32,447 nt of DNA. Origin: Kordiimonadaceae bacterium. GTDB taxonomy: Bacteria; Pseudomonadota; Alphaproteobacteria; Sphingomonadales; Emcibacteraceae. The notes under the pieces were generated by a model that worked only from the letters and a program-made list of their open reading frames with translations, searched no databases and was not told where the DNA came from. The DNA lies in assembly GCA_018675425.1 (NCBI GenBank), contig JABGYD010000061.1, forward strand, positions 1-32,447, written 5' to 3'. Positions 3,601-12,676 of this stretch are shown here, in pieces (position 1 is the first letter of the stretch; the number at the start of each line of letters is the position of its first letter). The position numbers and the translations under genes are program-made.

Positions 3601-3675
3601 GGCCCCTTCGTCTAGCGGTTAGGACGCGGCCCTTTCACGGCTGAAACACGGGTTCGATTCCCGTAGGGGTCACCA
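3601..3675 (+). tRNA. tRNA-Glu (anticodon TTC)
   Basis: A complete cloverleaf can be folded by eye. Acceptor GGCCCCT (3601-3607) pairs with AGGGGTC (3665-3671), with one G:T pair. Anticodon stem CGGCC (3627-3631) pairs with GGCTG (3639-3643) around a 7-base loop with TTC at 3634-3636. The T arm contains GGTTCGATTCC. The discriminator base is A3672 and CCA is genome-encoded (3673-3675). The D-loop TCTAGCGGTTAGGAC is the usual alphaproteobacterial tRNA-Glu form. Confidence 0.97.
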
Positions 3676-3982: not shown

Positions 3983-4993
3983 ATGACTATAAAAGTTTGT
4001 GCTTTGGGTGACTTCTTCCTTGCTCCTGAACTATTCCAAAAAAGGGTAATTAATTTTTGTGGAAATGGTATTGATCTTACCGTTCATAAGATGTCGCCGG
4101 GGCCAATGATATCGGGTGAATATGGTGATACTATAAGGGAATATTCAGGAAAAGAAGAAGAAGTTATTGAGTTGGCAAGGGAGGCAAATGCAATATTAAT
4201 ACATATTGCGCCTATCAGCCGTCGTGTTATTAATGCGCTTCCAAATTTAAAATTCATCGGTGTGGGACGCGGCGGACCTGTTAACGTAGATCAGGCTGCT
4301 GCTATTGAGCGGAATATTTTTTTAGCGAATGCACCAGGACGAAATGCAGGTGCGGTTGCAGAGTTCACCGTTGGGGCAATTATTAGCACAAGTCGTAAAA
4401 TTGCGATGGGAACTCAGGAGATGAGAGCTAACGAATGGTCAAGGAGCCACTATCATTATGAAAATACGGGTTTAGAGCTTTCAGAAATGATCATAGGGCT
4501 TATTGGGTATGCCAATATTGGAAAAATTGTTGGTCGTCTTTTAAGTGCTTTTGGTGCAAAAGTAATATTTTTTGATCCTTACCAGGAGTTAACGCAAGAA
4601 GATAAAAAATTAGGAATAATGAAAGTCGACCTTGATGAATTATGTCGATCAAGCGATACTATTTCTTTTCACACGCGGCTGACCAATGATACAGAAAATA
4701 TGTGTGACGATAGTTTCTTGTCGAAATTGAAGCCAAATTGTTTATTGATAAATACCGCTCGTGGCGAACTTATTAATCAAAGGTCTCTATTGAAGTATTT
4801 AAAATTGGGTTCAGTGGGTGGAGTATTTCTCGATACCTTTAATCCGGAGCCGCCAATGATTAATGACCCGTTAATTCATCACCCAAAAGTTTTTTCCACT
4901 CCACATATTGCGGGTGCGTCAAAAACATCAGCACATGTCGCAGTTGATGCAATCTCCAAAGCATTAGCAGGTTGGATACATGATAATAAATAA
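3983..4993 (+). CDS. D-isomer-specific 2-hydroxyacid dehydrogenase family protein
   Basis: A 336-aa NAD(P)-dependent dehydrogenase of the PGDH/FDH/glycerate dehydrogenase type, converting a 2-hydroxy acid and the matching 2-keto acid. The catalytic triad is visible: Arg260 in NTARGEL, Glu289 in NPEPP and His308 in TPHIAG. The Rossmann loop is GLIGYANIG (172-180), where the second glycine of the usual GxGxxG is alanine (Ala177), followed by Asp198 in FFDPY. First gene of a three-gene plus-strand operon with a class II aldolase (16 bases downstream) and an aldo/keto reductase, so the substrate is probably a sugar acid or a keto acid made from one. The exact substrate cannot be read from sequence. 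Confidence 0.88.
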   Translation: MTIKVCALGDFFLAPELFQKRVINFCGNGIDLTVHKMSPGPMISGEYGDTIREYSGKEEEVIELAREANAILIHIAPISRRVINALPNLKFIGVGRGGPVNVDQAAAIERNIFLANAPGRNAGAVAEFTVGAIISTSRKIAMGTQEMRANEWSRSHYHYENTGLELSEMIIGLIGYANIGKIVGRLLSAFGAKVIFFDPYQELTQEDKKLGIMKVDLDELCRSSDTISFHTRLTNDTENMCDDSFLSKLKPNCLLINTARGELINQRSLLKYLKLGSVGGVFLDTFNPEPPMINDPLIHHPKVFSTPHIAGASKTSAHVAVDAISKALAGWIHDNK

Positions 4994-5009
4994 ATTTTAG
5001 GAATAAATA

Positions 5010-5678
5010 ATGATACAAAAAAACACAAGGGAAACAAGGCAGTCAATCATTGATGCCTGTCTGTGGATGAATAGCTCAGGCCTGAACCAGGGAACATCTG
5101 GGAATATTAGTGTTTTTACAGATGAAGGGATTTTAATCACACCCAGCAGCTTACCTTATGAAGAAACACAACCAGAGGATATTGTATTGTTACCTGGCGA
5201 TGGATTATTAGGCGAAGCAGTTGGACGTCACCGACCCTCATCGGAATGGAAATTTCATGCTGATATTTATAACAAAAGAGATGATATTCATTCAGTTGTT
5301 CACACCCACTCTATCTATGCGACTGCACTCTCAATGTTACGAAAGGATATTCCAAGTGTTCATTATATGATTGGAGTTTTTGGTGGTGATAGTATTCGTT
5401 GTGCTGATTACGCCCACTATGGTAGTAAAGAATTATCTGAAAATGCACTTATCGCTCTGCAAGACAGAACGGGATGTTTGCTGGGAACTCACGGGATGAT
5501 CGCCTGCGGTGGCGATCTAAAGCAAGCTTTATGGAGAGCGGGAGAACTTGAAGCGCTTTGTCAGCAATATCACCTTGCCTGTCAAATAGGAAAACCTTCT
5601 ATTTTGACAGCTCAAGAAATGATTGAGGTGCGGGAACGTATGAAATCAGGCTATGGTGTTTGGCCAAAGAAAGACTGA
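5010..5678 (+). CDS. Class II aldolase/adducin family protein (FucA/OtnC-like)
   Basis: A 222-aa zinc-dependent aldolase of the L-fuculose-phosphate aldolase family. Metal ligands match E. coli FucA in spacing: Glu79 (PSSEW), His98 and His100 (VHTHS), His161 (GTHG). The phosphate-binding GNISV (31-35) and TPSSLPY (44-50) segments are present. Family members cleave or decarboxylate phosphorylated ketoses: L-fuculose-1-P, L-ribulose-5-P (epimerase), 3-oxo-tetronate-4-P (OtnC). It has a good AGGA (4999-5002) ribosome site. Together with the facing FGGY kinase it suggests a phosphorylate-then-cleave pathway. Which sugar is used is inference, and the four-carbon acid route (OtnC) is a real alternative because a 2-hydroxyacid dehydrogenase lies upstream. 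Confidence 0.9.
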   Translation: MIQKNTRETRQSIIDACLWMNSSGLNQGTSGNISVFTDEGILITPSSLPYEETQPEDIVLLPGDGLLGEAVGRHRPSSEWKFHADIYNKRDDIHSVVHTHSIYATALSMLRKDIPSVHYMIGVFGGDSIRCADYAHYGSKELSENALIALQDRTGCLLGTHGMIACGGDLKQALWRAGELEALCQQYHLACQIGKPSILTAQEMIEVRERMKSGYGVWPKKD

Positions 5679-5696
5679 CACTAAAGGAGCTAGGGA

Positions 5697-6680
5697 GTGG
5701 TTGTTAAAGAAATAATAAGTATTGGAAATAGCCAAATGCCTACGGTTGGTATGGGGCTCTGGAAACTCGAAAAAGGTTTGGCGTCTAAAGGGGTGCGAGA
5801 TGCCATCTCGATGGGGTACCGCCACTTAGATAGTGCAACTGATTATGCCAACGAAACTGAAGTTGGGATTGGTATAAAGCAAGCTTTAGATGAGGGTCTG
5901 TGTACCCGCGAAGAGTTATGGATTACCTCAAAGCTGTGGAATACAGATCATCGTGCAGAACATGTACGGCCATCATTATTAAAAACAATGAATGATCTTC
6001 AAGTAGATTACTTAGATCTTTACCTTATCCATTTTCCAATTGCTTTAAAGCACGTTCCTCATGATCAACTTTATCCTGCTGACTGGATTTATGATTTAAA
6101 TGCAGAATGTCCAAAGATGGAATTAGATAACGTGCCTATTTCTGAGACTTGGAAAGCTATGGAGGAGCTTGTGGAAGAAGGCCTTGTTCGAAACATTGGC
6201 GTTTGTAATTTCTCTACTGGTTTAATACATGATTTATTATCCTACGCAAAGATAAAGCCGGCCGTTGTTCAGGTAGAAGTTCATCCCTATTTTACGCAAG
6301 AAAAATTAATACGCCTTTGTCGCGAACGTGATATCGCAGTTACTGCTTTCTCACCCCTTGGAGCTCTTTCATATGTGTCACTTAATATGGCTCAAAATTC
6401 CGACAACGTTCTTGGTGAACAGGTCGTTTTAACTGCTGCAAAAAGGCTAAGTAAATCACCCGCACAAGTGGTACTAAGGTGGGGTATTCAGAGGCATGTT
6501 TCCATAATTCCTAAATCTTCAAACCCAAAACGACAACTAGAAAATTTACAACTATTTGATTTTTCGCTTACTGATCAAGAAATGTCTGAGATAAGTGCAT
6601 TAAATCGCAATCAACGTTTTAATGATCCCGGCGAATTTTGTGAGCGAGCTTTTGGCGCTTTTCATCCAATTTATGATTAG
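5697..6680 (+). CDS. Aldo/keto reductase, xylose reductase-like
   Basis: A 327-aa NAD(P)H-dependent reductase of the AKR superfamily, a TIM barrel. The catalytic tetrad is complete: Asp45, Tyr50, Lys79, His112. These lie two residues further on than in yeast xylose reductase (Asp43, Tyr48, Lys77, His110). Further likeness to that group comes from LYLIHFPIALK near 108-118, VPISETWKAMEELV, the cofactor motif IPKSSNPKRQLEN and the RFNDP segment near the C-terminus. The start is GTG 5697, chosen because AAGGAG (5684-5689) sits 7 bases upstream. It probably interconverts an aldose or ketose with its polyol in this cluster. Its 3' end faces the kinase gene 21 bases away, with no clear terminator between. 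Confidence 0.9.
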   Translation: MVVKEIISIGNSQMPTVGMGLWKLEKGLASKGVRDAISMGYRHLDSATDYANETEVGIGIKQALDEGLCTREELWITSKLWNTDHRAEHVRPSLLKTMNDLQVDYLDLYLIHFPIALKHVPHDQLYPADWIYDLNAECPKMELDNVPISETWKAMEELVEEGLVRNIGVCNFSTGLIHDLLSYAKIKPAVVQVEVHPYFTQEKLIRLCRERDIAVTAFSPLGALSYVSLNMAQNSDNVLGEQVVLTAAKRLSKSPAQVVLRWGIQRHVSIIPKSSNPKRQLENLQLFDFSLTDQEMSEISALNRNQRFNDPGEFCERAFGAFHPIYD

Positions 6681-6701
6681 TAATTATAAAAAACTTTAGA
6701 T

Positions 6702-8177
6702 CTATGAATTCCAGACCGACATCATTTTTTTTTGTATCTGAACATATTTATTAAATAATTCATCATAAATTGCTACTTGATCGGGCTCGGGGTCAATACG
6801 TCTAGGTTTATTGATATGATTAATAGCATGATCAATATCCACATATATTTCTCCTGCAATTCCAGCCATTAATGCTGAGCCACGAGCACAGAGCTCGGTT
6901 TCGGTAGAGATGAAAACGGGAAGGTTAGTGCAGTTTGAAATAATTTTTGCCCAAAATAAACTGCGTGCCCCACCTCCTGCAAGAAAAATTCGTTCTGGAT
7001 CTTGATTTTTTAAACAGTCTTTTATTGATAATGCTACACCTTCATAAACCGCCCTTGTCATAGTGAGGGGGGTAGTTTTTTCATTTATTCCACTAAATTG
7101 AGCGCTGGCACCTGGTGAATAAAAAGGCGCTCTTTCTCCAGATAAAGATATATATGGATGATAAATTAATCCGTAGCTTCCAGCAGGGATTTTGCCTAGC
7201 TCTGCCTCTATATTGTTAAAATTTTTATCGTAGTTAAAAAGATCATATACCCAGTCAATATTTGGAGTGGCGGCCATTGTCGCTGACACCTTAATAAACA
7301 GTTCAGGTACTGCGTGCATTTCCATTCCGGATCGATCATTAGGTCCTTTTTTAAGAATATCAGATACTACAACGCTACATCCAGATGTTCCTAAGATCAC
7401 GCAAGCGTCTCCGTCTTTAATAGCTCCGCACCCAAGAGCTGTTGCTGCTACATCAAAGGCTCCACAGGCAATAGGGGTACCGATGGGCAAACCAGTAATA
7501 TTGGTTGAAAACTTTGTAACCGTTCCCGAATATTCTGAGGGTGTAAATAATTTAGGAATTAATGGAAATAAATTTTTAATCTTCAGGTGATCAAATAATT
7601 CAACCGAGGTTGTTCCTGTTTCTAAATTAAGTAATGAAGTAGATGCATCAGTGGTGTCCGTACTGATTAGATTGGTAAGTTTGTACCTTATCCAATCTTT
7701 ACAAAACATTAGATTATGAGCCTTAGCAATCTGTTCTGGTTTATTATCTTTCAACCATCGTAACAAAACACTTGTTGCGCCAGGAAAAAGTGGTGAACCA
7801 GTTATTTTAAAAATACTTTCACTTATAGGAGAATTATTCTCTAATTCTGTCACTAAACTTTCTGCTCTACTGTCATTCCAAAGAATAGCGCGTCCAATTG
7901 GTTTTCCGTCCTTGTCGATAAGCCAAAGGCCTTCTCCTTGGCCTGAAACCGCAGCAGCTAAAATTTTTGACCCGGGTCCCATTTTAAGTATTACACTTTT
8001 GATCGTTTCTGCAACATCTTCCCATAGTTCATCCATATCAACCTCAGAGCAAGAACCACGTTTAATCAATCTGGTATCTCGTGATGATGAAAAGACCTGA
8101 CGCCCATGAATATTGAATAGAACAGCCTTTATTCGAGTAGTTCCCACATCAATACCTAGAAGATATTTGTTCGCCAT
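6702..8177 (-). CDS. FGGY-family carbohydrate kinase (xylulose/erythritol kinase-like)
   Basis: A 491-aa two-domain ATP-dependent sugar kinase. Visible: the N-terminal phosphate loop GIDVGTTRIKAV (8-19), SGQGEGLWLIDKDGKP (78-93), the catalytic base Asp242 in GAFDVAATALG, and the C-terminal LAGGGARSLFW nucleotide-binding segment. SVLLRWLKDNKPE and the CKDWIRYKLT segment resemble L-xylulose kinase (LyxK) and erythritol kinase (EryA) more than glycerol kinase. This is family resemblance from memory, so the substrate is not settled. Its ATG (complement of 8175-8177) directly follows the TAA of the upstream transporter gene. The ribosome site GAGGT lies inside that gene, so translation is coupled. 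Confidence 0.9.
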   Translation of the reverse strand: MANKYLLGIDVGTTRIKAVLFNIHGRQVFSSSRDTRLIKRGSCSEVDMDELWEDVAETIKSVILKMGPGSKILAAAVSGQGEGLWLIDKDGKPIGRAILWNDSRAESLVTELENNSPISESIFKITGSPLFPGATSVLLRWLKDNKPEQIAKAHNLMFCKDWIRYKLTNLISTDTTDASTSLLNLETGTTSVELFDHLKIKNLFPLIPKLFTPSEYSGTVTKFSTNITGLPIGTPIACGAFDVAATALGCGAIKDGDACVILGTSGCSVVVSDILKKGPNDRSGMEMHAVPELFIKVSATMAATPNIDWVYDLFNYDKNFNNIEAELGKIPAGSYGLIYHPYISLSGERAPFYSPGASAQFSGINEKTTPLTMTRAVYEGVALSIKDCLKNQDPERIFLAGGGARSLFWAKIISNCTNLPVFISTETELCARGSALMAGIAGEIYVDIDHAINHINKPRRIDPEPDQVAIYDELFNKYVQIQKKMMSVWNS

Positions 8178-9527
8178 TTATACCTCAGACTTTGGAACTA
8201 ATAGTATAGCGTTACCATATTCATCAAGAGCGGTGTCCTGGAATTTTGGTAGGCCCATTAAAATTGCCAATACTCCAAAAACAATGATTAACATGGGGTA
8301 CCAGCAATACGGAGATATTTCCAGTGGTGAAAGCCCAGCAAGCGCTGCTGCTGTTAATATTTGGCCGCCATATGGCACAATACCTTGAAATCCGCAGGAA
8401 AATATATCTAACAGGCTTGCAGTACGTCTAGGGTCAATTTTAAATTGTTGATTAAGGTCTTTGGCAATAGGGCCGGCAGAAACGATGGCGATGGTATTAT
8501 TAGCAATTGCTATATCGAGAAAGCTAACAAGAGCTGCTATACTGAATTCTGCTCCTCTGCGCGACTTAATATTTTTGGTAATATTGACCATAAGCCAATC
8601 AACGCCACCGTAGGATTTCATTAATGCAACTATACCCCCTATAATTAAGGCAATAATTGCTAGGTCTTCCATCCATCCCATCCCAGTTTGTATACTTTTT
8701 AACATCCCTAGGATATTAAACGAACCAAATGATAGACCAATTACACAGGCGGAACCTATGCCTATCCCTAAGACCGTGATAACATTTAATCCTAATAATG
8801 CAGAAATAATAATCAAAAAATAGGGAAGTATTAACCAAAAGTTATAGGAACCAAGCTCAATATTGGCCTGGATATCAAATTCAACAAACATAAGTACTAC
8901 CACTGTAATGAGAGCCGCAGGTAAAGCAATAATTAGGTTAGCTTTAAACTTATCTTTTAACCTTACACCTTGGGTACGTGTAGCCGCAATTGTTGTGTCA
9001 GATATAAAAGATAAATTGTCTCCAAACATTGCTCCTCCAATGACAATACCTACGGCAAGGGGGGTTGGTATACCAATTTTATTAGCTAAGCCTATTCCAA
9101 TAGGAACAATGGCAGTGATTGTTCCCATAGAGGTTCCCATAGAAAAAGATATAAAGCAGGAAATAATAAACAGTCCTGGCAATAAAAAGGCAGTTGGAAC
9201 AAAACGTAACGCCCAATTTACAGTGGCATCACGTGCACCAATATCGATCGTGAGAGAGTAAAATGCCCCTGCTAAGAGAAATATGACAACCAAGAGAATA
9301 ATGGTTTTTTCGCCGCCGCCGGTACAAAATATATCAACCTTTTTACCGAAGGGTATTACGATGCCTTTCGGATTAAGTAGTAGGGCATAGCCTGCAGTAA
9401 TCATAAATGCTACGAGTATTGGCATTGCTTCAAAATTTTCAGCAAAAATTCCTGCAAAAACAACAAGAAAGACAAACAATAATATGGGCGTAAGTCCTAA
9501 AAAATTACTATTTTTGTAATCACACAT
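8178..9527 (-). CDS. NhaC-family Na+/H+ antiporter-type transporter
   Basis: A 449-aa polytopic inner-membrane protein with about 10-12 hydrophobic segments. Family features include SFSMGTSMGTITAIVPIG, GGAMFGDNLSFISDTTIAATRTQG and, near the C-terminus, SCGFQGIVPYGGQILTAAALAG, all typical of the NhaC/MleN family. That family includes Na+/H+ antiporters and also organic-anion exchangers such as malate/lactate antiporters. Because the gene forms a two-gene unit with an FGGY kinase, I infer that it imports the kinase substrate or exports an organic acid product instead of only handling sodium. The ATG is preceded by AGGGGA at 7 bases and a promoter with a perfect -35 box. Confidence 0.88.
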   Translation of the reverse strand: MCDYKNSNFLGLTPILLFVFLVVFAGIFAENFEAMPILVAFMITAGYALLLNPKGIVIPFGKKVDIFCTGGGEKTIILLVVIFLLAGAFYSLTIDIGARDATVNWALRFVPTAFLLPGLFIISCFISFSMGTSMGTITAIVPIGIGLANKIGIPTPLAVGIVIGGAMFGDNLSFISDTTIAATRTQGVRLKDKFKANLIIALPAALITVVVLMFVEFDIQANIELGSYNFWLILPYFLIIISALLGLNVITVLGIGIGSACVIGLSFGSFNILGMLKSIQTGMGWMEDLAIIALIIGGIVALMKSYGGVDWLMVNITKNIKSRRGAEFSIAALVSFLDIAIANNTIAIVSAGPIAKDLNQQFKIDPRRTASLLDIFSCGFQGIVPYGGQILTAAALAGLSPLEISPYCWYPMLIIVFGVLAILMGLPKFQDTALDEYGNAILLVPKSEV

Positions 9528-9577: not shown

Positions 9578-9684
9578 AGAAAAATACTGTAATACTAGAA
9601 GATTATAACTTTCAGACTTAGGCTGAGTATTTATTAAAATTTAATTATCCGTTGTTTTTCAATTTGAAATGAGTTAACTACCCT

Positions 9685-9862
9685 TCTGATGGTTCTTTGT
9701 TATAAAAAGCAAAGTGAAAAGGGAAAATGGTGAGGTTATACCTAAGACTAATTCCATTACTATGCCCGTAACTGTAAACGATGAAGTAGCTCAATATACC
9801 ACTGGGAAAACCGGGAAGGTGAGCGAAGTAATTTACTCGTAAGTCAGGATACCTGCCGTCAA
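9685..9862 (+). promoter_or_regulatory. Cobalamin (AdoCbl-type) riboswitch
   Basis: The conserved core runs in order: GGTTCTTT (9691-9698), AAGGGAA-like box (9719-9725), ATGGTGAGG (9728-9735), CCCGTAACTGTAA (9765-9777), CCACTGGGAAAACCGGGAAGG (in 9799-9819), and the B12 box AAGTCAGGATACCTGCC (9841-9857). The closing helix P1 is GATGG (9688-9692) with CCGTC (9856-9860). The riboswitch lies about 145 bases upstream of a BtuFCD-type importer and is expected to shut it off when cobalamin is plentiful. Outer boundaries are approximate. An antisense 94-codon ORF across the same bases is a shadow. Confidence 0.95.
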
Positions 9863-9902
9863 ATTGCCCTATCTGCTGGTCGGTGCAACCAAACAGAGCG
9901 GT

Positions 9903-9938
9903 CTTCCGTGTAGGTGATAATTTTTTTACACACGGAGG
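9903..9938 (+). promoter_or_regulatory. Expression-platform hairpin of the cobalamin riboswitch
   Basis: CTTCCGTGT (9903-9911) pairs with ACACGGAGG (9930-9938): nine consecutive pairs including one G:T, with an 18-base loop containing a T7 run. The 3' arm holds GGAGG, a strong Shine-Dalgarno sequence. It is followed 12 bases later by ATG at 9951, which is immediately closed by TAA. The hairpin is seen in the sequence; its role in switching is inferred from its place between aptamer and first gene. Confidence 0.55.
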
Positions 9939-9986
9939 TTGTCTAAATTTATGTAAGGACAAAATCCATAAAATTTAATTTTAAAT

Positions 9987-9998
9987 CCTCACCTGAGG
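9987..9998 (+). promoter_or_regulatory. Small hairpin covering the btuF-like Shine-Dalgarno
   Basis: CCTC (9987-9990), loop ACCT, GAGG (9995-9998). The GAGG is the ribosome binding site of the ATG at 10006 (7 bases away). The stem is only 4 bp, so on its own it is weak, but CCTC is a ready anti-Shine-Dalgarno for a translational switch. Confidence 0.4.
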
Positions 9999-10005
9999 TA
10001 AATCA

Positions 10006-10908
10006 ATGGAACTTGTTTTGAACTTATTTAAAATATACATAAAAGTAATACTCTTGTTCTTCTGCTTTCCTTATTCCGTATCAAGTTTTTCACTTGCTCA
10101 GGAAAATAAATGGGATATTTTGCCAAGAATAGTTTCGCTGGACCTTTGTTCGGACCAAATTGTTTTAATTCTTGCTGACCAAAATCAGGTTGCTGCAATT
10201 TCAACGGCTGCGGATGATGTTTATTCTTTTTACCGTGAAAAAGCATTTCTTTTTCCAAAGACACGAGGAAAAATCGAAGAAATAATTATGCTTGAACCTG
10301 ATGTAGTTATGCAAACTTACTCTGCAACTATGAATATGGGGAAAATGACCAAAAGAATAGGAGCCTCATTAATAGAATTTAACTATAGTAACGAGCCAGA
10401 AATTTTATATAAAAACATTAAAATGGCGGGTAAGGTTCTTGGACAGAAAGATCGTGCGTCTCAATTTAATAAACGTTATACTAACCGTATAAATAAAATT
10501 AAAAATCAACCACGCAGTAAATTAAAAATCGCTTATGTTACACCAAGCGGCGTAACAGCGGGAATAGGCACTTCTGTAGATGATATTATTAAGTTATCAG
10601 GATTTGAAAGCTACGCAGCCACCCATAATTTTAAGGGCTGGTTAAATCTACCTATTGAAAATCTCATCATGGACCCGCCAGACATTTTTATAACTGGCTA
10701 TTTTGAAGATAAGGCAGTCACGCAATCCAACTGGAGCCTCGCTCGGCATAACAGTTTAATCAAAATGATGAAAAATATACCAACAGTTAATATACCAAGT
10801 AGTTACTTGAGTTGTAATGGTCTTTTTATTGTAGATGCTGCAGAGTACATCCGGACCAGTATATTTGAAAAAATTAACTTATTTAGCGATATAGAGGTGA
10901 GTAAGTGA
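10006..10908 (+). CDS. Periplasmic cobalamin-binding protein, BtuF-type
   Basis: A 300-aa substrate-binding protein of the FecB/BtuF/FhuD class. It starts with a signal peptide (hydrophobic about residues 8-28, ending near SFSLAQ). Then come PRIVSLDLCSDQIVLILAD, LEPDVVMQTY and a C-terminal lobe with PPDIFITGYFED. In the family these proteins bind a corrinoid, haem or siderophore in the periplasm and hand it to the FecCD-type permease. The cobalamin riboswitch upstream makes B12 or a precursor the expected cargo. It overlaps the permease gene by 4 bases (GTGA). No outer-membrane BtuB receptor is in the window. Confidence 0.87.
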   Translation: MELVLNLFKIYIKVILLFFCFPYSVSSFSLAQENKWDILPRIVSLDLCSDQIVLILADQNQVAAISTAADDVYSFYREKAFLFPKTRGKIEEIIMLEPDVVMQTYSATMNMGKMTKRIGASLIEFNYSNEPEILYKNIKMAGKVLGQKDRASQFNKRYTNRINKIKNQPRSKLKIAYVTPSGVTAGIGTSVDDIIKLSGFESYAATHNFKGWLNLPIENLIMDPPDIFITGYFEDKAVTQSNWSLARHNSLIKMMKNIPTVNIPSSYLSCNGLFIVDAAEYIRTSIFEKINLFSDIEVSK

Positions 10909-11897
10909 GTAAAAATGTGAGTTGCAATATTATATTACTTACTGCCCTTATCCTAGCAGCCCTTCTTTCTTTAACAATTGGGCCTGTAGATCTCACAATT
11001 ATGGACGTAATGAATGGGGTATTTGGCCCTAGTAATGACCCTGTTTCAATTATAGTAAGTGAGTTGAGACTTCCCCGTGTTTTGCTTGGTATTTTAATTG
11101 GTTCTGCACTTGGTGTTTCGGGGGCGGCATTGCAGGGTGTGCTTCGTAATCCGCTTGCAGATCCTGGTGTTATAGGTGTTTCTGCAAGTGCTGCTCTTGG
11201 TGCAGTTATAGCTATTCATTTAGGGGTTCATCTGGTCTGGCCGTTATTTATACCAATTTTTGCTATGGGTGGGGCATTACTTGCAACATTAATATTGTTA
11301 GCTGTTTCTGTTCGCGAAAGTAGCGTACTGATGCTTATCCTTGTTGGAATTGGTATTAGTTCATTGGCTATGGCAGGGGTTTCTCTAGTGATGAACCTAG
11401 CTGAATCACCTATGAGTGTTCGTGATATGATAATGTGGATGCTTGGTTCCCTAGAAAATAGAACAACGACTGATTTGTTTTTAGCACTTCCATTCATTTT
11501 GCTTGGCTGGATTATGATGATTAATGTTGGTCAGGGACTAAATGCTTTAAGCGTTGGTGAAGACACTGCTCGAAGCATGGGGATTAATCTTTCTATGCTT
11601 AAATTTCGAGTAGTTATTGGTTCGGCTATTAGTATTGGTGCTGCAGTATCGGTATGTGGCAGTATTGGTTTTGTTGGCCTTGTTGTCCCTCACATGGTCC
11701 GTAGAATAGTTACGAAGGAGCCAGGTGATATTTTAATTCCCAGTGCGCTGATGGGCGGTTTATTACTCACGCTAGCTGATATGTTAACACGACTTCCCAC
11801 GCCGGGTGCAACTTTGCAATTAGGTGTAGTTACTTCGTTAATTGGCGCTCCAACCTTTTTATATATTATTTATAAAACACGGAAGGGCATGAGGTGA
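10905..11897 (+). CDS. Cobalamin ABC transporter permease, BtuC/FecCD family
   Basis: A 330-aa inner-membrane permease of the FecCD family, close to the 326 aa of E. coli BtuC, with about ten membrane spans. Family landmarks: LRLPRVLLGILIGSALGVSGA near the N-terminus, the coupling helix region RNPLADPGVIGVSASAALGA, and GSIGFVGLVVPHMVRR in the C-terminal half. The start is GTG 10905, supported by GAGG (10894-10897) seven bases before it and the GTGA overlap with the upstream stop. It forms the channel for the binding protein before it and the ATPase after it. Confidence 0.92.
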   Translation: MSKNVSCNIILLTALILAALLSLTIGPVDLTIMDVMNGVFGPSNDPVSIIVSELRLPRVLLGILIGSALGVSGAALQGVLRNPLADPGVIGVSASAALGAVIAIHLGVHLVWPLFIPIFAMGGALLATLILLAVSVRESSVLMLILVGIGISSLAMAGVSLVMNLAESPMSVRDMIMWMLGSLENRTTTDLFLALPFILLGWIMMINVGQGLNALSVGEDTARSMGINLSMLKFRVVIGSAISIGAAVSVCGSIGFVGLVVPHMVRRIVTKEPGDILIPSALMGGLLLTLADMLTRLPTPGATLQLGVVTSLIGAPTFLYIIYKTRKGMR

Positions 11898-12676
11898 TGT
11901 GCTTAAAAACAGAAAACATTAACCTTGATATAAATAATAACTCAATTCTTGAGGATGTTACTATAACGCTTAATCGAGGTGAAATGGTTGGGTTGATCGG
12001 TCCGAATGGTGCAGGAAAAACAAGTTTATTAAAATGTATATTAGGTTTGTTAGAAGTTAAGAGTGGATCAATATCGGTTGATAATAAAAATATTGATGAT
12101 CTTATTTTAAAAGAACGCGCAAAAAAAATGGCTTATTTTGCTCAAGGTGCTCCAATTTATTGGCCGTTGACAGTAGAAAATATTGTGGGGTTAGGGCGTG
12201 TCCCTCATTTAAACCAGTGGCAAAAAATATCTGAAGATGATGAAAAAATTATTGAAAGTGCAATGGAAAAAACGAATTGCATTTCTTTAAAAGGAAGGCT
12301 TGTTACATCCCTCTCGGGAGGTGAGCGCGCTAGGGTGTTGCTAGCACGTGCACTTGCAACACGTGCACCCTATATAATGGCTGATGAGCCTATAGCTTCT
12401 CTTGACCCTGCACATCAATTGCAGGTTATGGAAATACTTAAAAAGTTAAGTAAAAATAATAATGGTGTGATGGTAGTAATGCATGATTTGAGTTTGGCGC
12501 TTCGTTATTGCGATCGTCTAATATTGCTAGACAGTGGAAAATTAATTGGTCAAGACACTCCTGATATTATTTTAAGTGATGATAAGCTTGCTAGTGTTTT
12601 TGGTATTCGTGCGTCAAGGTGGACAGATAGTGGGGAAGATTTTTTGATTACTCACCAAGTAAACGAAGAAACATAA
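11894..12676 (+). CDS. Cobalamin ABC transporter ATP-binding protein, BtuD-type
   Basis: A 260-aa ABC ATPase of the iron/B12 importer subfamily. Walker A GPNGAGKT (36-43), Q-loop Gln84, signature LSGGE (140-144), Walker B YIMADEP (160-166) and switch His197 are all intact. The reading frame opens with GTG 11894, overlapping the permease stop by 4 bases. The next codon is ATG (11897), which would give a TGATG junction and is an equally good start. It energises uptake through the adjacent permease. Third and last gene of the riboswitch-controlled operon. Confidence 0.92.
   Translation: MMCLKTENINLDINNNSILEDVTITLNRGEMVGLIGPNGAGKTSLLKCILGLLEVKSGSISVDNKNIDDLILKERAKKMAYFAQGAPIYWPLTVENIVGLGRVPHLNQWQKISEDDEKIIESAMEKTNCISLKGRLVTSLSGGERARVLLARALATRAPYIMADEPIASLDPAHQLQVMEILKKLSKNNNGVMVVMHDLSLALRYCDRLILLDSGKLIGQDTPDIILSDDKLASVFGIRASRWTDSGEDFLITHQVNEET

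Follow-up and report, generated by a model that had tools for sequence, protein, structure and literature searches.

The window analysed here, a stretch of 32,447 nucleotides from a Kordiimonadaceae bacterium, carries at positions 3983-9527 a conserved five-gene catabolic island, which encodes a 2-hydroxyacid dehydrogenase-family protein (2HADH), a class II aldolase, an aldo-keto reductase (AKR), an FGGY kinase and an NhaC-family transporter. On balance, the island is read as a module of the dihydroxyacetone phosphate (DHAP) shunt type, devoted to 5-deoxyribose or methylthioribose salvage, its carrier being unusual and a second way into the pathway being added. A role of the aldolase in the DHAP shunt is probable and moderately supported, while the substrate, its transport and the reaction of the dehydrogenase are what we infer; that the whole island belongs to 5-deoxypentose-type metabolism is judged slightly likelier than the contrary, and a polyol route through the 2HADH is put forward tentatively. 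The general kind of pathway is known, and this entry to it appears to be new.

Layout and conservation of the island

The plus strand encodes the 2HADH (3983..4993, 336 aa; Pfam 2-Hacid_dh_C, 165 bits), the FucA-like aldolase (5010..5678, 222 aa; Aldolase_II, 178 bits) and the AKR (5697..6680, 327 aa, GTG start; Aldo_ket_red, 172 bits), whose closest solved structures are xylose and aldose reductases. The facing minus strand encodes the FGGY kinase (6702..8177, 491 aa; FGGY_N 184 and FGGY_C 86 bits) and the candidate importer NhaC (8178..9527, 449 aa; Na_H_antiporter, PF03553, 67.8 bits for a cut-off of 23); NhaC is upstream, and its TAA directly abuts the kinase ATG. The five open reading frames (ORFs), their strands and this coupling were thus as the initial annotation had described them, with all the Pfam domains found, and its remark that the cluster has no regulator holds as well, as no regulator ORF occurs inside the five-gene block. 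Regarding nomenclature, none of the five proteins reached an NCBIfam cut-off; the generic names of the initial annotation are right, and these models give no warrant for more specific names.

Conservation was assessed in 13 genomes of the genus, the window's own (G000) included. All five genes occur in identical order and orientation in three of them (G000, G032 and G045), and the same three account for every NhaC match among 246 genomes of the order (E <= 1e-30). By eye, the genes flanking the blocks of G032 and G045 (loci L010 and L011) differ from those of the window, i.e., the blocks occupy different sites. Identities to the window proteins in G032 and G045 are, respectively, 76 and 73% for the 2HADH, 86 and 85% for the aldolase, 81 and 79% for the AKR, 61 and 58% for the kinase, and 83 and 79% for NhaC; the NhaC-kinase gap is 0, 0 and 1 nt across the three genomes, and the remaining gaps are 10-30 nt. 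Order, orientation and 58-86% protein identity kept despite different flanks are well beyond chance. The initial annotation would have been refuted by a NhaC-kinase pair unique to this genome, or by five genes that do not co-occur in relatives; neither is the case, as G032 and G045 carry the block. Its view of a catabolic-type unit with NhaC as a member also stands, given the block kept in 3/13 genomes and the same-clade NhaC proteins found beside sugar-type kinases in other phyla.

The individual genes do not share one distribution. A close kinase is confined to the three block genomes, while seven others hold only kinases of 26-30% identity; a kinase-only search of the genome contig collection gave no relative, and one across the class at 1e-80 returned the own genome alone (1/385). 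The window-type aldolase is in five of the 13 genomes (G000, G032, G045, G048 and G084), and in G048 and G084 it has no adjoining kinase, 2HADH, AKR or NhaC.

The aldolase and the mtn operon of the genus

Of all the evidence for a role of the island aldolase in the DHAP shunt, its profile across the genus is the strongest single item. Elsewhere in G000, on contig C39 (locus L138), the minus strand encodes a rhodanese-MtnA-like fusion (6491-7918), an MtnP-like protein (5730-6497) and a methionine-gamma-lyase-like, pyridoxal phosphate-type (PLP) lyase (4418-5686). This operon is complete in 10/13 genomes; contig ends truncate it in G086 and G098, and in G089 it was not detected. In G021, G051, G060 and G081, a second class II aldolase, RhaD-like, lies between MtnP and the lyase (L168 5402-6223, L169, L170 and L171); that of G021 exceeds the cut-off of the rhamnulose-1-phosphate aldolase model, and the RhaD-like protein is itself a candidate for the DHAP-shunt step, from another aldolase subfamily. 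Nothing occupies this slot in G000, G032, G045, G048 and G084, exactly the five genomes with the window-type aldolase. Hence, among the nine judgeable genomes, this aldolase is absent from all four with an in-operon aldolase and present in all five without (Fisher two-sided p 0.008); the value becomes 0.048 with G113 counted as neither, this 53% complete genome having an empty slot, no window-type hit, and a separate Aldolase_II hit on its contig C3. On the tree of the operon proteins, the in-operon state needs at least two changes, so the aldolase replacement was not a single event.

As for the protein itself, the catalytic residues of FucA-type enzymes, E73, H92, H94, Y113 and H155 in FucA, are identical in the window aldolase; it misses the FucA cut-offs (TIGR01086, 204.5 against 400.25; NF005984, 211.7 against 264), and it is proposed here as an aldolase for 5-methylthioribulose-1-phosphate and 5-deoxyribulose-1-phosphate. 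The rhodanese-IF-2B fusion is above the subfamily model TIGR00524 (188.8 against 185.85) and under TIGR00512 and NF004326, with clear Pfam domains; the rhodanese part of the fusion points to coupled sulfur transfer. ARD, an enzyme of classical methionine salvage, was over its cut-off in none of the 13 genus genomes, with hits below the cut-off in nine, a result read against a weak control (over its cut-off in only 2/14 genomes).

The NhaC-family transporter

The window NhaC does not reach the NhaC equivalog TIGR00931 (61 against 370 bits) and had no sequence match to solved structures. Its AlphaFold model (pLDDT 84.6, pTM 0.80), used for the fold and not for the pocket, has the ion transporter superfamily fold: the best match was MleN (an integrative model; TM, or template modelling, score 0.71), followed by TRAP SiaQM, ArsB and INDY, while Na+/H+ exchangers of the NapA/NhaP fold gave no match (TM about 0.16). 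Judging from this model, carriage of an organic substrate would be unsurprising for the fold.

The gene neighbourhoods were taken from a scan of the genome contig collection with a NhaC alignment, from which 80 of 556 confirmed loci were kept. The proteins of the window and of E. raffinosus were the only references for judging links by similarity, and a NhaC was called linked if two or more such enzyme genes were nearby. In Firmicutes, spirochaetes, Fusobacterium and Thaumasiovibrio, NhaC adjoins genes for MtnK, MtnA, a class II aldolase, an iron-type alcohol dehydrogenase (Fe-ADH) and DeoR; the MtnK and MtnA of E. raffinosus are over their NCBIfam cut-offs. Nine loci combine NhaC with FGGY, 2HADH and a class II aldolase-fold protein (L006, L032, L034, L048, L065, L082, L083, L084 and L088), eight of them with MtnK and/or MtnA. 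In the tree of 96 NhaC proteins, all 18 linked members fall within one clade of 41 rows (SH-aLRT 100), against 0/55 outside it, a count that includes 11 rows (L092-L102) whose loci span about 3-4 kb and could hardly reveal a link; MtnK and/or MtnA are beside 14 of the 18. Some other loci end at contig ends, and the linked L082 was dropped, its NhaC having been missed by the ORF caller. One half of the clade is 15/20 linked; the other consists of three Kordiimonadaceae and 18 Alteromonadaceae proteins, the latter unlinked.

The Alteromonadaceae proteins (L014-L031) are 60-71% identical to the window NhaC and have varied neighbours; by eye, a C-S lyase-like or cysteine desulfhydrase-like gene is near those of L014 and L016-L018. 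MetT, an NhaC-family methionine carrier, was considered as a candidate; PMC3228920 describes Alteromonas as without methionine-specific transporters with metboxes.

The kinase and the kinase-dehydrogenase-aldolase trio

An FGGY kinase, a 2HADH and a class II aldolase-fold protein also form a trio without NhaC in Shinella, S. meliloti, Paracoccus, Klebsiella and Streptomyces, with an ABC carrier in Shinella, S. meliloti and Klebsiella, and an MFS carrier in Streptomyces. In Klebsiella, the third protein of the trio is MtnB, over both MtnB cut-offs, and therefore should act on methylthioribulose-1-phosphate. In S. meliloti (L104 10715-14602), the trio continues into a glycerol-3-phosphate dehydrogenase, a second class II aldolase and a second FGGY kinase.

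Regarding the dehydrogenase of the trio, R96-x-x-P-x-N and an Arg-Asn pair at 120-121 (window numbering) are present in 17/17 aligned trio 2HADHs and in none of the four controls (GhrB, SerA, PdxB and the 2HADH of L009); the trio 2HADH of L084 has Ala in place of the second-motif Pro. All 21 aligned rows keep the catalytic R260, E289 and H308. R96 and R120 adjoin the loop that binds the carboxylate in this family, and they could hold a phosphate.

The kinase phylogeny that the initial annotation had called for was built with E. coli XylB, LyxK, AraB, FucK, RhaB, GlpK and LsrK and with the EryA-position protein of S. meliloti as references. It places the window kinase on the XylB/LyxK side, in a clade of its own with the trio kinases of Klebsiella and Tissierellia (95/98); the other trio kinases of Firmicutes and spirochaetes group with LsrK (97/89), so the kinase seat of the trio was filled at least twice. 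The window kinase misses the XylB equivalog TIGR01312 (317.8 against 380.25), and the tree separates it from E. coli XylB. The window-type trio kinases read [GA]QG[ED]G, GQGEG in the window, where XylB has QMHG, LyxK QGKG and GlpK QRET; the motif is also found in two haloarchaeal kinases without the full trio. On a haloarchaeal plasmid (L109 1303-6729), the gene for a kinase of the window type is in line with those for a class II aldolase and for GlpABC; here glycerol-3-phosphate dehydrogenase may take the seat of the 2HADH, an arrangement that would fit a polyol-phosphate substrate.

Proposed pathway

In the proposed scheme, the MtnP-like phosphorylase and the rhodanese-MtnA-like isomerase, both encoded elsewhere in the genome, would transform methylthioadenosine into 5-methylthioribulose-1-phosphate and 5'-deoxyadenosine into 5-deoxyribulose-1-phosphate. 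The island aldolase would cleave this ketose-1-phosphate into DHAP and (methylthio)acetaldehyde, in place of the RhaD-like in-operon aldolase of other members of the genus. NhaC, the FGGY kinase and the 2HADH would give an imported compound a second way in, leading to the same ketose-1-phosphate, and the AKR would reduce the released aldehyde, in the place of the Fe-ADH of Firmicutes clusters, or an imported 5-deoxyaldose to the pentitol.

In the oxidoreductive form of this second branch, a specific but rather unlikely proposal, NhaC would import 5-deoxypentitols (e.g., 5-deoxyribitol) or 5-deoxypentoses, the FGGY kinase would produce 5-deoxypentitol-1-phosphate, the double-arginine 2HADH would grip the phosphate and oxidise C2 to give 5-deoxypentulose-1-phosphate, and the aldolase would release DHAP and the aldehyde. 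A polyol is chosen as the start because MtnK and MtnA phosphorylate and isomerise an aldose, while a kinase and an oxidoreductase reach the same aldolase; it is the simplest substrate that a single kinase and a single redox reaction would convert into a ketose-1-phosphate. Several of the organisms with the trio are gut- or host-associated. According to PMC6079011, rats convert 5-deoxyribose to 5-deoxyribitol, which is excreted, and drd clusters sometimes include transporters.

The full route for an unusual pentose, tetritol or sugar acid suggested by the initial annotation survives in part: a conserved unit of catabolic type is supported, and the comparisons favour a 5-deoxypentose or methylthioribose over a common pentose, tetritol or sugar acid. 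The route is also probably not a closed one, since the island aldolase seems also to serve the MtnP/MtnA-type genes encoded elsewhere in the genome.

Several observations weigh against assigning the island to the DHAP shunt. The mtn genes, on contig C39, and the island, on C55, do not form one cluster, and the MtnP- and MtnA-like proteins are below the equivalog cut-offs (213 against 275 bits for the MTAP-like protein), with the family level clear. The window aldolase groups with FucA and the alphaproteobacterial trio aldolases, not with the NhaC-linked ones of Firmicutes, and it scores 189 bits to FucA and 154 to DrdA (6BTD); its profile in the genus comes from nine genomes and few independent switches, and G000 holds a further Aldolase_II ORF (736 aa, 49 bits). 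Likewise, the trio FGGY kinases of Firmicutes are of a different subfamily, on the LsrK side. As for the carrier, the 18 Alteromonadaceae proteins of the sister group have no kinase or mtn-type neighbours, which weakens the inference from the NhaC tree; an IF-2B/MtnA-family gene was detected in 1/18 of their genomes and a kinase hit in 6/18 (28-32% identity), and these NhaC probably differ in their job or in their partner enzymes. Two loci with MtnK, MtnA and aldolase have no NhaC nearby, and loci bearing MtnK or MtnA were over-sampled, one search seed being the E. raffinosus cluster. Finally, known enzymes of the 2HADH family act on 2-hydroxyacids (or formate, or phosphite), and oxidation of a polyol phosphate would be new.

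Alternative explanations

One alternative is a keto-acid route, in which NhaC would import an anionic sugar acid and the FGGY kinase would phosphorylate a ketoaldonate or ketouronate; the aldolase would yield DHAP together with either glyoxylate or tartronate semialdehyde, and a glyoxylate/hydroxypyruvate-type reductase would be the role of the 2HADH. The retained R260, E289 and H308 and the good scores of the glyoxylate reductase and PGDH NCBIfam models agree with it, as do the fold of NhaC, whose relatives carry organic anions (best match MleN, then TRAP SiaQM, ArsB and INDY), and the proximity of the kinase to LyxK, which in E. coli belongs to an operon with annotations for 2,3-diketo-L-gulonate uptake and for 3-keto-L-gulonate. 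However, the route leaves the repeated links to MtnK, MtnA and MtnB and the aldolase profile of the genus unexplained, the Lys of LyxK is Glu in the window kinase, and the block has no sugar-acid isomerase, dehydratase or second acid enzyme; the route is held to be improbable.

An equally low probability is given to NhaC accompanying the block as an antiporter of an ion or a product, with a different carrier bringing in the substrate. Na+/H+ antiport is the named function of the family, although the TIGR00931 match is far under its cut-off, and the Alteromonadaceae sister proteins stand alone, most of those genomes being without the mtn-type gene tested. Conversely, the tight NhaC-kinase junction is kept in 3/3 genomes, the NhaC clade recurs beside kinases in several phyla, and NhaC takes here the seat that belongs to ABC or MFS transporters in the trio elsewhere.

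Less likely again is an ordinary ketose-1-phosphate route for a pentulose or a 6-deoxyhexulose (of the ribulose-1-phosphate or fuculose-1-phosphate type), giving DHAP and glycolaldehyde or lactaldehyde, to be reduced by the AKR. FucA is the nearest solved structure of the aldolase and belongs to the same clade, and fuculose-phosphate aldolases lead the NCBIfam models, a haloarchaeal ribulose-1-phosphate aldolase coming fourth; FucA-type aldolases nevertheless take many aldehydes, according to PMC6079011, so the similarity to FucA says little about the aldehyde. Moreover, the block has no isomerase, the 2HADH is given no role, and the mtn links are unexplained. A self-contained route for an ordinary pentose was set aside, as it too leaves the 2HADH without a role.

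Surroundings of the island

The block is preceded by a tRNA-Glu (3601-3675) and followed by a cobalamin riboswitch (9673-9874); after the riboswitch, within 9673-12676, come genes for the substrate-binding protein, the permease and the ATPase of a B12/iron-type ABC transporter. The possibility that the island is foreign in composition was also considered, but the GC content of the block, 0.37-0.42, is inside the window range of 0.32-0.45 and gives no sign of it.

Significance

Every cell that uses S-adenosylmethionine makes 5'-deoxyadenosine and methylthioadenosine, and the fate of their sugar parts, how these cross membranes and who consumes them are questions on which the island would bear. 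Should the DHAP-shunt assignment be true, a candidate carrier family would be named, the shunt would gain a second enzymatic entry, and a sequence signature would be available to annotate a trio present in multiple phyla; in addition, the aldolase profile is a clear example of how one type of aldolase can take over from another inside a genus. If the polyol route were also true, the 2HADH family would, to our knowledge, gain its first polyol-phosphate dehydrogenase, and the NhaC family its first carrier of deoxysugars or polyols; the trio itself also occurs in rhizobia, Streptomyces, Klebsiella, Firmicutes and spirochaetes.

Within a literature search whose coverage left subscription journals and preprints mostly outside, no paper was found that joins NhaC with FGGY, or that brings a 2-hydroxyacid dehydrogenase together with both FGGY and a class II aldolase; NhaC and 5-deoxyribose occurred together only in one chemistry review. 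The accessible part of a review of the FGGY family lists nine functions, none for a 5-deoxy sugar. In E. coli, the putative transporter of the DHAP-shunt operon is described in PMC12632272 as of unknown function; a blastn search of the Thaumasiovibrio mtnA-mtnK against E. coli genomes gave no match.

Comparison with known systems

The closest known system is the DHAP shunt (DrdK-DrdI-DrdA; or MtnK or MtnP, MtnA and Ald2), with which the island and its genome have in common an aldolase of class II that is FucA-like, genes for MtnP-like and MtnA-like proteins, and a NhaC of the clade found in such clusters of other phyla; the differences are that the window kinase is an FGGY and not MtnK, that the block has no isomerase and has a 2HADH and an AKR in addition, and that the mtn genes are elsewhere.

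The trios of S. meliloti pSymB, Shinella, Paracoccus and Streptomyces have the same three families, the double arginine of the 2HADH and the [GA]QG[ED]G kinase motif. Unlike the island, they have ABC or MFS carriers and, within the stretches shown, neither NhaC nor AKR, and three of the four (Shinella, S. meliloti and Streptomyces) include a regulator of the sugar-binding type.

LyxK, the L-xylulose/3-keto-L-gulonate kinase, is in the clade neighbouring that of the window kinase and has a comparable AQGxG-type motif region; the two differ in overall sequence (26% identity) and in the Lys replaced by Glu, and no TRAP carrier or decarboxylase is near the window gene. Finally, the window NhaC resembles MleN and other NhaC-family carriers in exceeding the PF03553 cut-off and in its fold, for which MleN is the best match; it differs from them in not reaching TIGR00931 and in its kinase and aldolase context.

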